DNA of 26,512 bases from a virus. Position numbers and translations under genes: made by a program. The notes under the pieces are model-generated. The model saw nothing but the letters and a program-made list of their open reading frames with translations, had not been told where the DNA came from and made no database searches. The DNA lies in the IMG/VR virus record IMGVR_UViG_3300040801_003416, positions 1 through 26,512 of that record; one strand, written 5' to 3'. Position 1 is the stretch's first letter. The number at the start of each line of letters is the position of its first letter. Below are positions 16,636 to 26,130 of this stretch, in pieces.

Positions 16636-17100
16636 TCAGCCCTTCGAGCCGCGCCGGCTCTTGCCAGCCGAGGCCGAGGCGGTGGCCTGGGCGACGGCGA
16701 GAGCGCGCTTCTCTTCGAGCGTCAGGGGCGGATCGAGATCGTCCTCGACGACCTCGAGCGACCGGAGCGGGGGGATGTCAGCGCGCCAGATCGTGCGGTA
16801 GGACCGCGCGAGGCTCATCGGCGAGCTCTCGGGCGTGTTGTCCTTGCACCACTCGGCGTGCTCCTGTTCGAAGTGGGTCTGCGCGGCGGCGATCTTCTGC
16901 TCGTCGGCGACCATGTCCTTGAGCATGGGGACCATGCTCTGCGGGACGAGGATCTCAGCGGGCGCACCGCTGCGAATGTTGTAGCCCGCGATCTGTAGGC
17001 GGGCGGGTCGAACCTCGAGCCGCACACGCGACCGACGCTCGTGAGCGTAGCGGTCGCGCGGCGACTCGTTGAAGTTCTGCACCATCTGGGGTTCCGTCAT
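16636..17100 (-). CDS. Hypothetical protein after capsid gene, 154 aa
   Basis: A 154-residue protein starts at ATG 17100 with a good purine-rich ribosome site (AGGAGAGAAGGA) just upstream. It is charged: an N-terminal Arg-rich region (DRYAHERRSRVRLEVRPARL), a middle helix (VPMLKDMVADEQKIAAAQTH), and a basic Ala/Ser tail ending in KSRRGSKG. Genes placed between the major capsid gene and the connector genes are usually virion or assembly proteins of unknown role. No family recognised. It is the last gene before the terminator. Confidence 0.68.
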   Translation of the reverse strand: MTEPQMVQNFNESPRDRYAHERRSRVRLEVRPARLQIAGYNIRSGAPAEILVPQSMVPMLKDMVADEQKIAAAQTHFEQEHAEWCKDNTPESSPMSLARSYRTIWRADIPPLRSLEVVEDDLDPPLTLEEKRALAVAQATASASAGKSRRGSKG

Positions 17101-17124
17101 GATTCCTTCTCTCCTCTATTCAGC

Positions 17125-18066
17125 TCAGCTGATCTTGCCGTAGGCCGCCTGCCAGTGGCCGGGGCCGTGGGCGATGTCGCCGAAGATCACCCACTCGAGC
17201 TGCGCGAGCTTGCGCACGACGTAGTCGTCGGCCTCGTCGGGGTGGCTCTCCTGCATCGGGGCGCCGTGGCCGAGCACCCAGGGGCGCACGCCGGGCTTGG
17301 TGAGGTCCATCAGGGCCCAATCACCGGAGGTGATCTTGGGGGTGACGACGACGGTGGTGTCGCCCTGGTAGACGTTCGTGATGGAGGTAACGCCGATGCG
17401 GGTACCGGTGTCGATGTCGCCGGCGTTGTCGACGCTCACCGGGCGCTCGGCGCCGGTGATCTCCTTGGCCACGCGCTCCTCGTCGGGATGGACGAAGAGG
17501 TGCGAGGCGGTCATGTCGAGGTCTTCGCCCGACTCGGTCGTGTAGGACCGCATCGCCGCCTTGCCAGCGTTGTAGCTGGAGTGGCTGAGCGCGTCGGTCG
17601 TCTTGTTGCTCTGCGTCGCGCCGCCCGACCCGTTGGGGTGAGCGGTGCTGAACAGAGCCACGCCGTCCGGGCCGGTGACGGTGTTGGCCGTCAGCTTGGT
17701 CCAGACCTTCGAGTTGACGATCGAGGCGCCGCGCATCGCGAACTTCTGCAGCGCCGAGGCGATGCGTCCGGTGGCGTCGTTCTGCACCTTGATGCGGTCG
17801 AGCCTGAGCGCGGCGTAGACCTCTTCGAGGTCGTAGCTCGCGCCGTAGGCACGCAGACCGTCGAAGGCACGATCCTGCCCCGGCTTCATGGTCCGGGCCT
17901 GGGCGATGTCTTCGGTGTAGCCGACGTTCAGCTTCGTGGCGTTGATGTTCCCGACGTCTTCGGTGAACATCTGCCACGAGCCCGCGGTGATGTCGATGGC
18001 CTCGAGAGTGTCGAGATAGGCGGTGTTCGCAGCCGCCAGCTTGTCCTGAAAATCAGTGATGCTCAT
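17125..18066 (-). CDS. Mu gpT-like major capsid protein
   Basis: This 313-residue protein is the major head subunit. Its order matches Mu gpT: an N-terminal helical region MSITDFQDKLAAANTAYLDT, a strand region with YGASYDLEEVYAALRLDRIK, ALFSTAHPN (a highly conserved element in gpT proteins, residues about 137-145), a long middle with HLFVHPDEERVAKEI, and a C-terminal part with DWALMDLTKPGVRPW. The family has the HK97 fold and builds the icosahedral shell in the cytoplasm. ATG 18066 has a ribosome site AAGGGAG about ten bases upstream. It follows protease, scaffold and decoration genes as in other Mu-like heads. Confidence 0.9.
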   Translation of the reverse strand: MSITDFQDKLAAANTAYLDTLEAIDITAGSWQMFTEDVGNINATKLNVGYTEDIAQARTMKPGQDRAFDGLRAYGASYDLEEVYAALRLDRIKVQNDATGRIASALQKFAMRGASIVNSKVWTKLTANTVTGPDGVALFSTAHPNGSGGATQSNKTTDALSHSSYNAGKAAMRSYTTESGEDLDMTASHLFVHPDEERVAKEITGAERPVSVDNAGDIDTGTRIGVTSITNVYQGDTTVVVTPKITSGDWALMDLTKPGVRPWVLGHGAPMQESHPDEADDYVVRKLAQLEWVIFGDIAHGPGHWQAAYGKIS

Positions 18067-18081
18067 GGTTCATTGCTCCCT

Positions 18082-18507
18082 TCAGGCGTCCACGTCAGCG
18101 AAGACGCCGATGAGCACGAGGGCGTCGCCGTCCTCGAAGCCGACCAGGGTCCCGACCTTGACGTCGTTGGTGGCGGCCGCGGCATCGGTGACGGTGTTGT
18201 CATCCGAGACCACGACGTTCTTCCCGACGTCCGCCTGGGTGAGCGCCGAGTGGTTGAGCTTTTCGATGTGCCCGCGCTGGATGACGACGGTCTTGTCGCC
18301 GTCCGAGCCGGACGAGTTGTCGACCTTCTCGGCGACGATGCCGAGGAGGGCCAGGCCGGAGGCGTCGGTGGCCGCGACGGCGTCGCCGCCAGCGTCACCG
18401 AGCGCGATCGCGCCCTGGTAGAGAGTGGTGGACGCAGCCACGCGCATGTCGACCCCGATCGGGGTCCCATACACCGTGCGCGCCTTGTCTGCGGTGAGTG
18501 CAGCCAT
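18082..18507 (-). CDS. Capsid decoration/cement-type protein, 141 aa
   Basis: A 141-residue, Ala/Val/Asp-rich protein of predicted beta structure lies between scaffold and major capsid genes, where head-stabilising (decoration or cement) proteins are usually encoded. Typical features are VAASTTLYQGAIALGDAGGD, GLALLGIVAEKVDN and VGTLVGFEDGDALVLIGVF, the last resembling the C-terminus of small trimeric cement proteins. The ATG at 18507 has an AAAGGA site about ten bases upstream. No charged helix, signal or membrane segment. Confidence is fair for the role and good for the gene. Confidence 0.75.
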   Translation of the reverse strand: MAALTADKARTVYGTPIGVDMRVAASTTLYQGAIALGDAGGDAVAATDASGLALLGIVAEKVDNSSGSDGDKTVVIQRGHIEKLNHSALTQADVGKNVVVSDDNTVTDAAAATNDVKVGTLVGFEDGDALVLIGVFADVDA

Positions 18508-18534
18508 GGTTCGTGTGTTCCTTTCGGGGTGGGG

Positions 18535-19464
18535 TTAGTTGGCCGCGACCCGCGAGGAGCGAGCCTTGGCGATGGCGTTGGAGAGCGCGTCCGAGTGCGA
18601 CTTGCCGCACGCGACCTGCGCGTCGTAGAAGTGCCGCTCACGGCTGCTCAGCGCGGCGAGCTGCTCGCGCTTGCTGCCCTTCGGGCTGCGGTCGCCGCCG
18701 GGCTTGGCGGGGGTGTGCCGCCGCTTGAGCGGGACGCCGGGCGGCGGGGCAACTTCCTTGGCCGTGGCCAGGGTGTCGTCGAAGAGCTCGCGATCGGAGC
18801 GCCCGAGCTTGAGCAGGGTCTCGCGGCGCTCCTCGCGGATGGCGCCGCACTCGATCGCGGCGTCGACCTGCTTGGCAAGGTCGGCGTCCCGCGCCTCGTC
18901 GATCCGGGCCTGCAGCTCGTTCGCGCGCTCGGACTCCCTTGAGAGGCTCGACCGAAGCGATTCGATGATCGTGTCCCTGGATTCGATCTTGCGGCCGAGC
19001 TCGCTCATAGCCTCGTCGCTCGCCTCGTCGCCGTCCTGGGGCGCGCCCTGGAACTTCGCGGCGAGGTCGGCGGCGTTCTCGGCCAGCCACGCCTCGACGG
19101 CGATCACGTCGGCGGTGCCGCCACCGGCCACGATCTCGGCCACGATGGCCTCCGCGCCGGGTCCGTAGGCCATGCCGTCCATGGCTTCGACCGTCTCGGC
19201 ACCGGGCTCGTCGCCCGCCTCGATGGTCTCGCCCTCGGGCTCGGCGGACGCAGCGACCTTCTCGTCGTCGTCCTTGCCCATGGCGGGCGGCTCGTCGCCG
19301 CCCTCGGCCGGGGGCTCGCCCTCGGACTCGGAGCCCTCGTCGGACTCGCCTTCGATGGCCTTCATCTTCTGATGCTCGGCGTCGAGCAGCGCCTTGAGCT
19401 GCTCGTAGTCGGCACCCTCGGGCAGCTCTTCGCTGACCTTCTCAAGTAGTTCCTTCGCGTCCAT
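18535..19464 (-). CDS. Nested in-frame scaffold protein (gpZ-like)
   Basis: In frame with the protease gene, an ATG at 19464 opens MDAKELLEKVSEELPEGADY and gives a 309-residue scaffold. It is preceded by AAAGGAG with a seven-base spacer, one of the best ribosome sites in the window, which argues for separate translation. The product has an acidic Glu/Asp/Ala-rich region (about residues 36-110), an Ala-rich region, a coiled coil containing LSRESERANELQARIDEARD and a basic C-terminus, the usual layout of scaffolds that bind the capsid protein through their C-terminal end. In Mu, gpZ is produced from inside gene I in the same way. Confidence 0.78.
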   Translation of the reverse strand: MDAKELLEKVSEELPEGADYEQLKALLDAEHQKMKAIEGESDEGSESEGEPPAEGGDEPPAMGKDDDEKVAASAEPEGETIEAGDEPGAETVEAMDGMAYGPGAEAIVAEIVAGGGTADVIAVEAWLAENAADLAAKFQGAPQDGDEASDEAMSELGRKIESRDTIIESLRSSLSRESERANELQARIDEARDADLAKQVDAAIECGAIREERRETLLKLGRSDRELFDDTLATAKEVAPPPGVPLKRRHTPAKPGGDRSPKGSKREQLAALSSRERHFYDAQVACGKSHSDALSNAIAKARSSRVAAN

Positions 19465-20533: not shown

Positions 20534-21379
20534 TCAGGCCCGTGCGGCCTCGTCCTCGATGGCCTCGCCGGGCGCCCCGCTGAATCCGCGGGTGATGGCG
20601 CCCTCGGCGTCGATGGGGCGGCTGAGCGCCGCGCCGTCGATGGCCTCGGTGACGATGCAGACGCACCGGCAGTTGTAGGAGTTCGGCGGGTAGACCCGCG
20701 AAAGCTCGGGGTCGCCGTGCCGCCACTGCTTGCCGTCGAGCGCGGCGTGGCTGGCGCGGACCCGGTTGTCACCGGCGGTGACGTACTCGTAGACGATCGA
20801 GTCGTTGCCCTCGGTCGCGCGGCGCTGCTGCTCGAAGCGGCCCGCGTTGTAGCTGGTGCCCGTCGCCGTGCGGTACACCATCTCGAGGTACCGGCGAACG
20901 CCACCGGGGTAGCCTTCGCCTCGGGTGACGTCGGTCAGCTCGGTGATGAAGTCGCGAAGGCCCGTGCCGTCGCCCTTCATGGCCTCACGGATGCGGCCGA
21001 AGGCGCGCTCGATGATCGCGTCCGCGATGGCGCGGCGCATGGTGAACGCCCGGAAGCGCTCGGCGTCGAGGAGTGCGTCGAAGTCCTCGGGGCTCACGAG
21101 GTCGCGGCTCACGAAGAACTCGATCGCCTCGGTGAAGTCGAGATTGAGGAAGGTCGGCGGGGGCGCCCGGTCCAGCGACCGCTCGGCGCGGCCGAGCTCG
21201 ATGTCGTTGACGAAGAGCTGGCCGGCGAGGTGCGTCTTGGTATTCGCGCTCCAGAGGGAGCCGAGTAGCCCGTCGTCGCTTTCGATGGCGGCACGGACGC
21301 GGCTGAGCGCGCTCTCGGCCTCGGTCTCGGTGGTGACCGGCGCGAGCGCCGTCATCATGGCCGCGATGTGCGGCTGCAT
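20534..21379 (-). CDS. Mu gpF-like minor head protein, fused by frameshift to portal
   Basis: From ATG 21379 the frame encodes 281 residues. Residues about 70-260 match the phage Mu F-like/SPP1 gp7 head morphogenesis family, with YRTATGTSYNAGRFEQQRRA and the signature DNRVRASHAALDGKQW followed by YPPNSYNCRCVC near the end. Such proteins are minor capsid components associated with the portal. The first 70 residues, and a further 54 codons open upstream without any start codon, look instead like the C-terminal domain of the DUF935 portal (LRGALEAAELMQPHIAAMMT and onward). The natural product is therefore probably a portal-gpF fusion of 782 residues made by a -1 shift; ATG 21379 may or may not be used alone. 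Confidence 0.82.
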   Translation of the reverse strand: MQPHIAAMMTALAPVTTETEAESALSRVRAAIESDDGLLGSLWSANTKTHLAGQLFVNDIELGRAERSLDRAPPPTFLNLDFTEAIEFFVSRDLVSPEDFDALLDAERFRAFTMRRAIADAIIERAFGRIREAMKGDGTGLRDFITELTDVTRGEGYPGGVRRYLEMVYRTATGTSYNAGRFEQQRRATEGNDSIVYEYVTAGDNRVRASHAALDGKQWRHGDPELSRVYPPNSYNCRCVCIVTEAIDGAALSRPIDAEGAITRGFSGAPGEAIEDEAARA

Positions 21380-21429: not shown

Positions 21430-22881
21430 CTATTCCGACCAGGGCACGCTGGCGGTCCTCGTCGGAGAGTCGGAGCGTGTCGGCGAAGTCCGGCGCGTCG
21501 TCAAAGGTAGCTGCATCTGCCCCGGCCGGGGCGCTCGGGCGAAAGGGGCAGGCTCGGGGGCCACCTCCTCACGCCGATCGAAGCCGGGCGCCGTCTTCGC
21601 GATGGGCACGACGATCTCAGCGCCACCCTGCTCGGCGTCCCATGGCTCGAGGCCCGCGCTCGCGCGCAGCTCGTTGCGGCTGACCACGCCGCCGTCGACG
21701 TGGAGTTGCGTGATGACCGGCTCGGGCTCGCGCTCGAGCACGAAGCGCGGCTCGGGCATCGGCGGCATCTGGCCGCCGAAAAGTCGCGCGTTGATTTGGA
21801 GGGTCGGCGCGCAGAACTGGTGCCGCACGGTCTCGGCGAGGCGCTTGGCGCTCGCGATGAGACGCGGCGTGATCGTGACGTCGTCCTGGCTGTCGGCGAC
21901 CGCGCGGCTCCCGTTGCCGCCCGTCGAGGACCCCTCGACGTTGACAGTGCTTCCGAGGATAGCCTTCGAGCACTCGTCCTCGTAGTGCCGGATCGCGGCG
22001 TTCCATTCGTCGGCGCCCGACGTCGACGCCTTGAGCAGCTCGATCCCCTGGCCCCCTTCGAGGACGATCGCGCCGTTGGCGCTGAGGTCTTCGAGCGCGG
22101 AGAGGAAGGCGGCCCGCGCCTCCTCGTGAGCGCTTGCGACGCTCGACCCGACCACGATGGGCGAGGCGAGCCGTTCGAGGGCTTGCTGCCGGAAGTTGAT
22201 CGCCCACTTCTTGAAGAGCCAGGACCAGGCGCACGCGAGGAGCACGCCGGCCAGCTGCGGGGGCAGGCCCACGCCGCCGGGAACGTGGATCATCCAAGCG
22301 TTGGGCTCGTCGTCGGTGCGGAGCCATTCGTAGCCGAGGCCGACGCCGGTCTCCCACGTTCGCACCTCGACCGACCAGTCCGACGCGAATCGAACGTCAC
22401 GCGGCTGGACCCGGTGCTGCTGGGTGCTGAGCCACGCCGTGCCGTACTCGGTGCGGACCGGGTTCCAGTCGTGCTCGACGACGCCGGCAAAGACGCCCTC
22501 GCCGTGGAGCAGGTGCTCCAGGGTGCGCTCGCTACCGCGGACGCGCGCCCAGGCGTCGGCGCAAAAGTCGGCGGCGCGCTGCGCGAGCTCGCTGTCGTCG
22601 GCGGGCTCGAAGCGCAGGTCCGAGGCGATGACGCCGCGGATGTAGGTCTCGTAAACGCTGCGGATGTGCGGGTCTTCCCGCAGCATCGTCTCGGCGACGT
22701 CGGCCCAATCCTCGAGGTGCCCGCGCTCCGCGTCGCTGATGATGCCCGCGAGCCGGCCCGGCGTGAGGCCGACCACCGACTGCCGTACCCATCGGCCGAT
22801 CGGGCGCGGCTGGGCCAGTCGCTCGGTGGGCACCTTGGCGCCGCTGGATCCGCTTCGGAGGGTGCGTGTGGAGCCGGACAT
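21430..22881 (-). CDS. Mu gp29-like portal protein (DUF935), 0-frame product
   Basis: The 483-residue product matches the Mu gp29/DUF935 portal family: the opening IGRWVRQSVVGLTPGRLAGI, ILREDPHIRSV-type helix, the core WSWLFKKWAINFRQQALERL followed by ASPIVVGSS, and the C-terminal PWDAEQGGAEIVVPIAKTAP. Portals form the dodecameric channel through which DNA is packed and ejected. The last 36 codons of this frame (after residue 447) are Arg/Thr/Ser/Pro-rich and unlike the family, while the expected C-terminal domain continues in the -1 frame. So this product ends in a short non-homologous tail unless ribosomes shift at 21541-21547. ATG 22881 lies nine bases after the terminase stop. Confidence 0.88.
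   Translation of the reverse strand: MSGSTRTLRSGSSGAKVPTERLAQPRPIGRWVRQSVVGLTPGRLAGIISDAERGHLEDWADVAETMLREDPHIRSVYETYIRGVIASDLRFEPADDSELAQRAADFCADAWARVRGSERTLEHLLHGEGVFAGVVEHDWNPVRTEYGTAWLSTQQHRVQPRDVRFASDWSVEVRTWETGVGLGYEWLRTDDEPNAWMIHVPGGVGLPPQLAGVLLACAWSWLFKKWAINFRQQALERLASPIVVGSSVASAHEEARAAFLSALEDLSANGAIVLEGGQGIELLKASTSGADEWNAAIRHYEDECSKAILGSTVNVEGSSTGGNGSRAVADSQDDVTITPRLIASAKRLAETVRHQFCAPTLQINARLFGGQMPPMPEPRFVLEREPEPVITQLHVDGGVVSRNELRASAGLEPWDAEQGGAEIVVPIAKTAPGFDRREEVAPEPAPFARAPRPGQMQLPLTTRRTSPTRSDSPTRTASVPWSE
21519..21547 (-). promoter_or_regulatory. Candidate -1 frameshift signal, portal to gpF
   Basis: On the minus strand the portal codons read GCC CCT TTC, containing the canonical X XXY YYZ heptamer C CCT TTC at 21547-21541. 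Eight bases downstream is the perfect 14-base palindrome GCCCCGGCCGGGGC (21532-21519), able to form a five-pair GC hairpin. Slippery heptamer, spacer of 8 and stable hairpin are the standard elements of bacterial -1 frameshifting. The shift joins portal residue 447 to an open frame of 335 codons. A sequencing or assembly error in the C-rich run is the main alternative. Confidence 0.68.
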
Positions 22882-24833: not shown

Positions 24834-25520
24834 TCAGGCGCGCGCGGATGGACGCTGTCCGCGATACATGCGGACTTCGTCGGGGATCTGGTCGTACGGA
24901 ATGATCGGCACAGTAAGGCGCTCGCGGACGCCATCATGGAGCGGCTTGATGTAGCGAAGCTGGTAGCCCGCCAGCGGCTCAAACCCCGCGGCCCGCATGC
25001 TGCGTCTGGTGCCGTCGATGGCATACCGATTTTGCAGCTGCGGCGAGGACGCAACGCCGACGTTGCTCACCACCGCGCCATCCGGCGCGCGCCAAAGCGT
25101 CGAGTTCTTGCGAATGCTCGTGAGCCAAAATCCGGCCGCTCGATAGATGGTTCCATCGCCACACTGGGTGGCGTCCGAGTACGACACCACCCACTGGACG
25201 TGTGGATACCGCCGAGCGATCTCTCGAAGCGCGTAGGCGATGGCACGCGACTCGCTATTGCGTGGCAACTCATCAGAGAAGGCAAGCCGATTTAGCTCCA
25301 AGTACCCATCCCACGACGTACCTTCCACGAGGGTCAGGGTCTTGCGCGTGTCGATGGCCGGCCCGAAGGCCATCGCGCCGAGCAGTCGTCCGCCAAGCGT
25401 CACACCCAGGTGTAGCCGGCTCTTGCTGTAGGCCTTGCCGGAGTAGTGCCATCGTCGGATGGCCGCTGCGGACTGCTGGCCCGTGATCGGCACGACCCGG
25501 ATATCACGAGCCGATGCCAA
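24834..25520 (-). CDS. mom: Mom-like DNA adenine hypermodification enzyme
   Basis: The product (228 residues from the start chosen) matches phage Mu Mom along its length: RRWHYSGKAY, SRLHLGV, MAFGPAID..K, LVEGT.W, LELNRLAFSDELPRNSESRA, then SYSDATQCGDGTIYRAAGF and LRYIKPLHDGVRERLTVP. Mom is a GNAT-fold enzyme that converts adenine in phage DNA to a carbamoylmethyl derivative, protecting it from many restriction enzymes. Residues I recall as functionally important in Mu Mom (Tyr49, Arg101, Asp139, Tyr149) fall at Tyr26, Arg78, Asp116 and Tyr126 here with identical spacing. TTG 25520 is preferred because AGAGG lies four bases upstream; GTG 25532, GTG 25493 and ATG 25568 are alternatives. The start overlaps the ParB-like gene by 17 bases. 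Confidence 0.9.
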   Translation of the reverse strand: MASARDIRVVPITGQQSAAAIRRWHYSGKAYSKSRLHLGVTLGGRLLGAMAFGPAIDTRKTLTLVEGTSWDGYLELNRLAFSDELPRNSESRAIAYALREIARRYPHVQWVVSYSDATQCGDGTIYRAAGFWLTSIRKNSTLWRAPDGAVVSNVGVASSPQLQNRYAIDGTRRSMRAAGFEPLAGYQLRYIKPLHDGVRERLTVPIIPYDQIPDEVRMYRGQRPSARA

Positions 25521-26130
25521 GACACCTCTCACAGATCGCGACCAGCGCCAGGCTCCGACGACGGCCATCTTCGCCCGACACGTCCACCGATCCAATCGCT
25601 CGCTCCACGAGCGCGCGTTGCTCAGCGTTGAGATAGAATGCGACCTGTCCCATCTCGGGCTCGTCGCCATCGGGTAGGCTCGGCCACTCGGCGCCCTTAT
25701 CCAGCGGCCCGAAGTCCGGCACCGCATCGGCGAGCGCCCCGAGCGCCTCGCTGTCCCAGCCGGCGAGCTCGGCATCCTCGAGCCCGAAGTCGCTAAGCGC
25801 CTCGGCGAGCATCGGCTCGTCCCACGGCGTCAGCTCGGTCTGTCGGTTGTCGGCGAGCGCCAGCAGGTGGGCCTCGCGGTCACCGAGATCCATGAAGCGC
25901 ACGGGTACCTTGGTTAGCCCGAGTTTCTGCGCGGCCTTCCACCGCGTGTGCCCGGCGATGATCTCGCCGTCCTCGCGCCGGGCCACGATGGGCGCGGCGA
26001 AGCCGAATCGCTCGATGCTCTTGGCGACAGCCTCAACGGGCTTGCCGTCGTTGCGGCGCGGGTTGCCGGGCCACGGCTTGAGCGTGTCGGGGCTCACCCA
26101 CTCGGCGGGGGCGTCGGCCTTCTTGCTCAC
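25504..26130 (-). CDS. ParB-like domain protein
   Basis: The 208-residue protein starts at a GTG (26130-26128) overlapping the zinc-ribbon TGA by four bases. Residues 10-100 match the ParB/sulfiredoxin-like domain: NPRRND, a helix KPVEAVAKSIERFGF, PIVARREDGEIIAG, GHTRWKAAQKLG (60-71), VPVRFMDL and ALADNRQTE. The R64 within GHTRW corresponds to the catalytic or nucleotide-binding Arg of the ParB box. Phage proteins of this type often lie beside DNA methyltransferases and may bind DNA or CTP; here the partner is Mom. The C-terminal 100 residues are acidic and unassigned. The gene's 3' end overlaps the mom-like start, so the two are translationally coupled. Confidence 0.85.
   Translation of the reverse strand: MSKKADAPAEWVSPDTLKPWPGNPRRNDGKPVEAVAKSIERFGFAAPIVARREDGEIIAGHTRWKAAQKLGLTKVPVRFMDLGDREAHLLALADNRQTELTPWDEPMLAEALSDFGLEDAELAGWDSEALGALADAVPDFGPLDKGAEWPSLPDGDEPEMGQVAFYLNAEQRALVERAIGSVDVSGEDGRRRSLALVAICERCLGIGS

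Follow-up and report, generated by a model that had tools for sequence, protein, structure and literature searches.

The window analysed here comprises the 26,512 nucleotides of a complete IMG/VR virus record (IMGVR_UViG_3300040801_003416), a single metagenome contig in which all head-module coordinates lie on the minus strand. The module runs in the order terminase, portal, MuF, protease and major head protein (Table 1). The portal matched PF06074 with an E value of 2.7e-47 (162 bits, curated cut-off 23.9), and its profile matched the solved portal 8rka with an E value of 6e-27. MuF adjoins the portal but is encoded in the -1 frame, where it matched PF04233 with E values of about 6e-21 to 8.7e-21 (75-78 bits, above the cut-off) and phrog_220 with an E value of 4e-30. 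Outside the portal region, a Mom-like DNA modification gene was found next to the small terminase gene (24834-25775, minus strand; phrog_1384, E 1.4e-41). An open frame of 633 aa (17041-18942, plus strand) lies antisense to the head genes; it has likely arisen from high G+C codon bias and is not taken for a gene.

Table 1. Features of the head module and of the portal/MuF junction in the window.
Feature	Position	Strand	Remarks
Terminase	24357-22891	minus	
Mu-type portal, 0 frame, 483 aa (predicted short product)	22881-21430	minus	PF06074; phrog_113 portal
Shine-Dalgarno-like AGGAGGT	21569-21563	minus	candidate stimulator, 15 nt upstream of heptamer
-1 frame: linker, conserved segment of about 110 aa, MuF	open 21568-20534	minus	
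Slippery heptamer C_CCT_TTC (Pro446-Phe447)	21547-21541	minus	in phase with portal
Palindrome GCCCCGGCCGGGGC	21532-21519	minus	hairpin of the initial annotation; unsupported as conserved element
0-frame tail	portal residues 448-483	minus	conserved
Segment DFADTLRLSD...GQLFV, about 109 aa, before MuF	21490-21164	minus	conserved in all three relatives
MuF (Phage_Mu_F) core domain	20971-20654	minus	PF04233, 77.7 bits, cut-off 29.6
Mu I-like protease gene	20058-18535	minus	PF10123; just downstream of MuF
Major head protein	18066-17125	minus	

Relatives of the window were identified with a terminase-based scan (L002 and L003) and a later alignment search (L095), while single-sequence scans with portal and MuF and two scans of bacterial genomes returned none. 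The DNA identity to the window was 76.6% over 7.6 kb for L002 and 68-73% for L003. L095 was a 100% copy of the L003 region from another dataset, and the lineage consists of three distinct members only. The portal of the window was 64-66% and 50-51% identical to those of its relatives over the full length, tail included, and the -1 product was 55% and 64% identical. Portal and MuF overlapped in the -1 frame in both L002 (496 nt) and L003 (334 nt). As the window is one metagenome contig, and portal and MuF are on record as a single-gene fusion in other phages (PMC7302621), the switch could be an indel from assembly or sequencing, or the mark of a gene that broke recently, in what is truly one ORF. 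However, the same -1 overlap was present in two divergent relatives and in the identical copy from the other dataset, both frames were conserved, and the switch fell at a conserved heptamer. We therefore regard an indel as very improbable. The frame switch proposed in the initial annotation thus held in the relatives, neither of which had an uninterrupted portal frame and both of which retained the heptamer and the overlap.

By comparison of the three sequences, the overlapping stretch is dual coding, with both frames conserved. Directly after the heptamer the -1 frame encodes a variable Ala/Pro/Asp linker, and the 0 frame keeps Q-[LM]-x-LPLT (..GQ[LM]xLPLT..). Further on it is the -1 frame that keeps DFADxxxLSDxD...IGRPRETALRG. 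Indels within the overlap were multiples of three, and the excess of third-position substitutions vanished there, although the numbers were small. The 0-frame motif Q[LM]xLPLT (residues 455-461; 21523-21500, minus strand) resembles a sliding-clamp-binding motif, which we take to be a chance likeness.

Overlapping genes are normal in Mu-type head modules, and MuF could also be a separate gene that overlaps the portal and is translated from an internal start (a weak GTG or a non-AUG codon) or by re-initiation after portal termination. The -1 frame has an ATG at 21379 in the window and a GTG in L003, and the Shine-Dalgarno-like AGGAGGT lies upstream. It was confirmed that neither ATG, GTG nor TTG precedes the ATG at 21379 in this frame. 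The first such codon after the heptamer was an ATG at codon 54 in the window, a GTG at codon 70 in L002 and a GTG at codon 35 in L003. Separate initiation of MuF is unlikely because these first starts are at non-homologous places and lie within the conserved -1 protein, so that conserved -1 residues would be lost; the linker holds no start at all. L002 offers no start until codon 70, the Shine-Dalgarno-like site has no start codon behind it, and the portal stops are at differing places among the three phages. In most of the conventional Mu-type junctions that we collected, the portal stop has an ATG no more than about 20 nt away, and the heptamer is lacking. Unlike these, the three phages had no ATG near the portal stop.

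The initial annotation had placed a slippery heptamer at the switch point, and this was borne out: CCCTTTC is read C|CCT|TTC in the portal frame, with the portal stop 36 codons further on, and it is found in identical form and phase in L002 (7768-7774) and L003 (8790-8796). Among in-phase heptamers of the form X_XXY_YYZ, the portals of the window and L003 hold this one alone, and that of L002 has one more (GGGCCCC). The codon CCT is rare in the three portals (3/46, 1/50 and 2/52 Pro codons, 2-7%), yet invariant at the site. Judged on these sequences, the conservation of the heptamer exceeds chance, because it is the sole in-phase X_XXY_YYZ in the portal of the window and its rare CCT is kept in all three phages. 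An internal start of MuF would leave this conservation unexplained. High-level -1 frameshifting on C_CC.U_UU.C has been measured in E. coli (PMC4066793). A +1 shift on CCC_UUU_C has been proposed for a fungal virus (PMC9029208); it was rejected for the window, as the opposite phase would be needed. Two products per gene could likewise come from transcriptional slippage instead of ribosomal frameshifting. Such slippage needs a long run of A or T. The site CCCCTTTC has no such run, and we give transcriptional slippage next to no credence.

The initial annotation had further described an 8-nt spacer, GCCCGAGC, 3' of the heptamer, followed by a hairpin, GCCCCGGCCGGGGC, as stimulator. The positions of both hold on the minus strand. 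However, the hairpin was absent from the relatives, and the region folded no better than shuffled sequences or other windows. No downstream stimulatory structure was conserved in the lineage (combined P 0.6), and such a feature is optional in bacteria, as is a Shine-Dalgarno-like stimulator upstream. AGGAGGT, with its 15-nt spacing and no start codon behind it, was identical in the window, L002 and L003. This spacing is at or just beyond the outer edge of those reported to stimulate -1 shifts (PMC4066793, PMC5009743). The conservation of AGGAGGT may partly reflect the coding of Glu/Gln-Glu-Val. A similar element, GAGGAGGT, encodes Glu-Glu-Val in a second portal family at longer, variable distances, and for this reason we keep AGGAGGT as a candidate stimulator of the slip only.

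Between the linker and the MuF domain, the -1 frame encodes a segment that the initial annotation had taken for the expected C-terminal domain of DUF935 portals. An hhalign comparison with 13 Mu-type portal C-termini gave a weak, collinear match (probability 20%, E 0.001). The signal was weak in all three approaches taken to this homology, and the segment is possibly a displaced Mu-portal C-terminal domain. AlphaFold modelled the -1 product with a pLDDT of 44, too low for the model to be used.

The whole of IMG/VR was also scanned for AGGAGGT-N15-CCCTTTCGNCCG. Four contigs carried this pattern, all at portal/MuF junctions and in the right phase; three were the lineage of the window and the fourth (L106) had no detectable homology to it and belonged to another portal family. 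The L106 portal, an 824-aa PF04860 protein with NUDIX, has the pattern at its end; MuF is in the -1 frame, and a hairpin (GCCCCCUU/AAGGGGGU) follows the heptamer pattern. Because a GTG occurs 13 codons into this -1 frame, MuF of L106 may have its own start. In the isolated Arthrobacter phages Sonali and Mufasa8, which are related to L106, portal, NUDIX and MuF form one ORF. Close to the corresponding boundary, an in-phase C_CCA_AAA was present in both phages together with a CCCTCC/GGAGGG hairpin. Their -1 frames close after 9 codons, one with TAG and one with TGA, and the two proteins are 57% identical.

With an alignment-based scan by protein similarity, independent of the heptamer, 77 loci of the PF04860 portal family were collected, mostly with NUDIX. 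Where MuF was split off into an overlapping -1 frame, an in-phase heptamer of an efficient type (GGGAAAA, CCCAAAA, AAAAAAA or CCCTTTC) was found inside the overlap in 10/10 distinct loci, L106 included, although some overlaps were just 19-31 nt long. Two loci (L146 and L153) had no MuF start codon ahead of the domain. Where portal and MuF formed a single ORF, about 24 of 27 loci had a heptamer near the boundary and a -1 stop within 17 codons, against a background of 8 such heptamers in 29,726 codons elsewhere in these ORFs. Downstream folding was above that of other windows of the same genes, with combined P values of about 1e-10 for fused and 1e-6 for split loci, which are rough because the loci share ancestry. 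In L156, L161 and L163 the stem sequence differed and the pairing was retained. In these three loci and L186 the heptamer precedes the NUDIX-like segment, which would place both NUDIX and MuF in the frameshift extension.

In other loci of the PF04860 family (L118/L119, L123, L124/L125, L131 and L160) MuF was in the +1 frame or followed a gap, which may mean separate genes or a frameshift of another type. Loci with an in-frame stop between portal and MuF also occur in this family. Among Mu-type portals, Rhizobium phage RR1-B (L103) has a 472-aa portal with MuF in an overlapping -1 frame (2357-2420). The 64-nt overlap contains an in-phase AAAAAAA / AAAAAAC, and MuF is annotated as starting from a TTG (2501). 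It is a possible further case in an isolated phage.

Based on the relatives and on the recurrence in the second family, which both support the initial reading of two portal forms, we consider it very probable that a -1 programmed ribosomal frameshift at the portal/MuF junction gives a 483-aa portal and a 782-aa portal-MuF fusion. Most ribosomes would stay in frame on C|CCU|UUC and terminate after a further 36 codons, which would yield the 483-aa portal with its conserved tail. A fraction would slip one base back on CCCUUUC and go on in the -1 frame through the segment into MuF. The length of 782 aa was reproduced when the -1 reading was taken from 21541 onward, and the predicted junction peptide is ...EPAPF-RPSAPAGADAATF... 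Both products may co-assemble in one portal ring, in which case the frameshift efficiency would set the number of MuF domains per capsid. Each SPP1 capsid contains one to two copies of MuF, attached to the portal.

It is also conceivable that frameshifting serves only the low-level production of MuF with the preceding segment, and that the fusion is subsequently cleaved, perhaps by the I-type protease of the phage, so that a mixed ring does not persist. A gene for a Mu-like I protease does lie just downstream, and in Mu and SPP1 MuF normally occurs as a free protein. However, second-family relatives with an unsplit portal-MuF ORF add a frameshift signal that would yield the short form, which suggests that the covalent fusion itself is wanted. 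We regard later cleavage as the less probable outcome, though one that carries some weight. As heptamers were found at both split and fused junctions, the relative amounts of portal and portal-MuF seem to be governed by frameshifting. A shift would yield the fusion in loci with split genes and, as in dnaX, truncate it to the short portal in those with fused genes. Taken over the families, -1 frameshifting at this junction is probably a general and independently recurring device, present in at least two portal families, that fixes the MuF-bearing subunits of the ring (some with NUDIX) and has two mirror-image versions, one fusion-making and one truncating.

Frameshifts in phages are on record for tail chaperones, major head and tail-tube genes (PMC5009743, PMC6316719). 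The lambda tail chaperone gpG/gpGT likewise depends on a -1 slip at a heptamer, whereby a short form and a form with a C-terminal extension are made in a fixed ratio. However, it lies between the genes of the major tail or tail tube protein and the tape measure and is an assembly chaperone, whereas the site in the window belongs to the packaging module, where it would link the portal with a minor head protein. The major head protein of Lactobacillus phage A2, the capsid of Listeria phage PSA and SPP1 gp17.1/17.1* also use a frameshift to obtain a minority of C-terminally extended subunits in an oligomeric part of the virion, but there it is the major head or tail-tube protein that is extended, and no such case was found for a portal or for its joining to MuF. 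The dnaX gene of E. coli (tau/gamma) likewise combines an internal Shine-Dalgarno-like element with X_XXY_YYZ, and the relatives with a fused ORF mirror its truncating shift; dnaX encodes a cellular DNA polymerase subunit and its shift truncates, whereas the shift in the window extends. In SPP1 the portal (gp6) and MuF (gp7) are separate genes whose products bind non-covalently, in contrast to the covalent fusion predicted here. Sonali, Mufasa8 and Microbacterium EA3/EA5/EA8/EB phages have the same covalent portal-MuF product, but these have been reported as plain gene fusions; the boundary heptamer with its quick, dnaX-like -1 stop was seen here in Sonali, Mufasa8 and most related contigs. 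Open-access literature searches, in which absence is not proof, returned no report of a frameshift at the portal/MuF junction, and it is apparently unreported so far.

The twelve subunits of the portal ring are usually regarded as identical. A ring in which a set fraction of them carries a fused MuF would be heterogeneous by programmed translation. Our results also suggest that many portal and MuF genes may be incompletely annotated, as plain fusions or as separate genes. Fused and split forms interchange around a conserved heptamer across many homologous loci, which makes the proposed frameshift testable in isolated phages.
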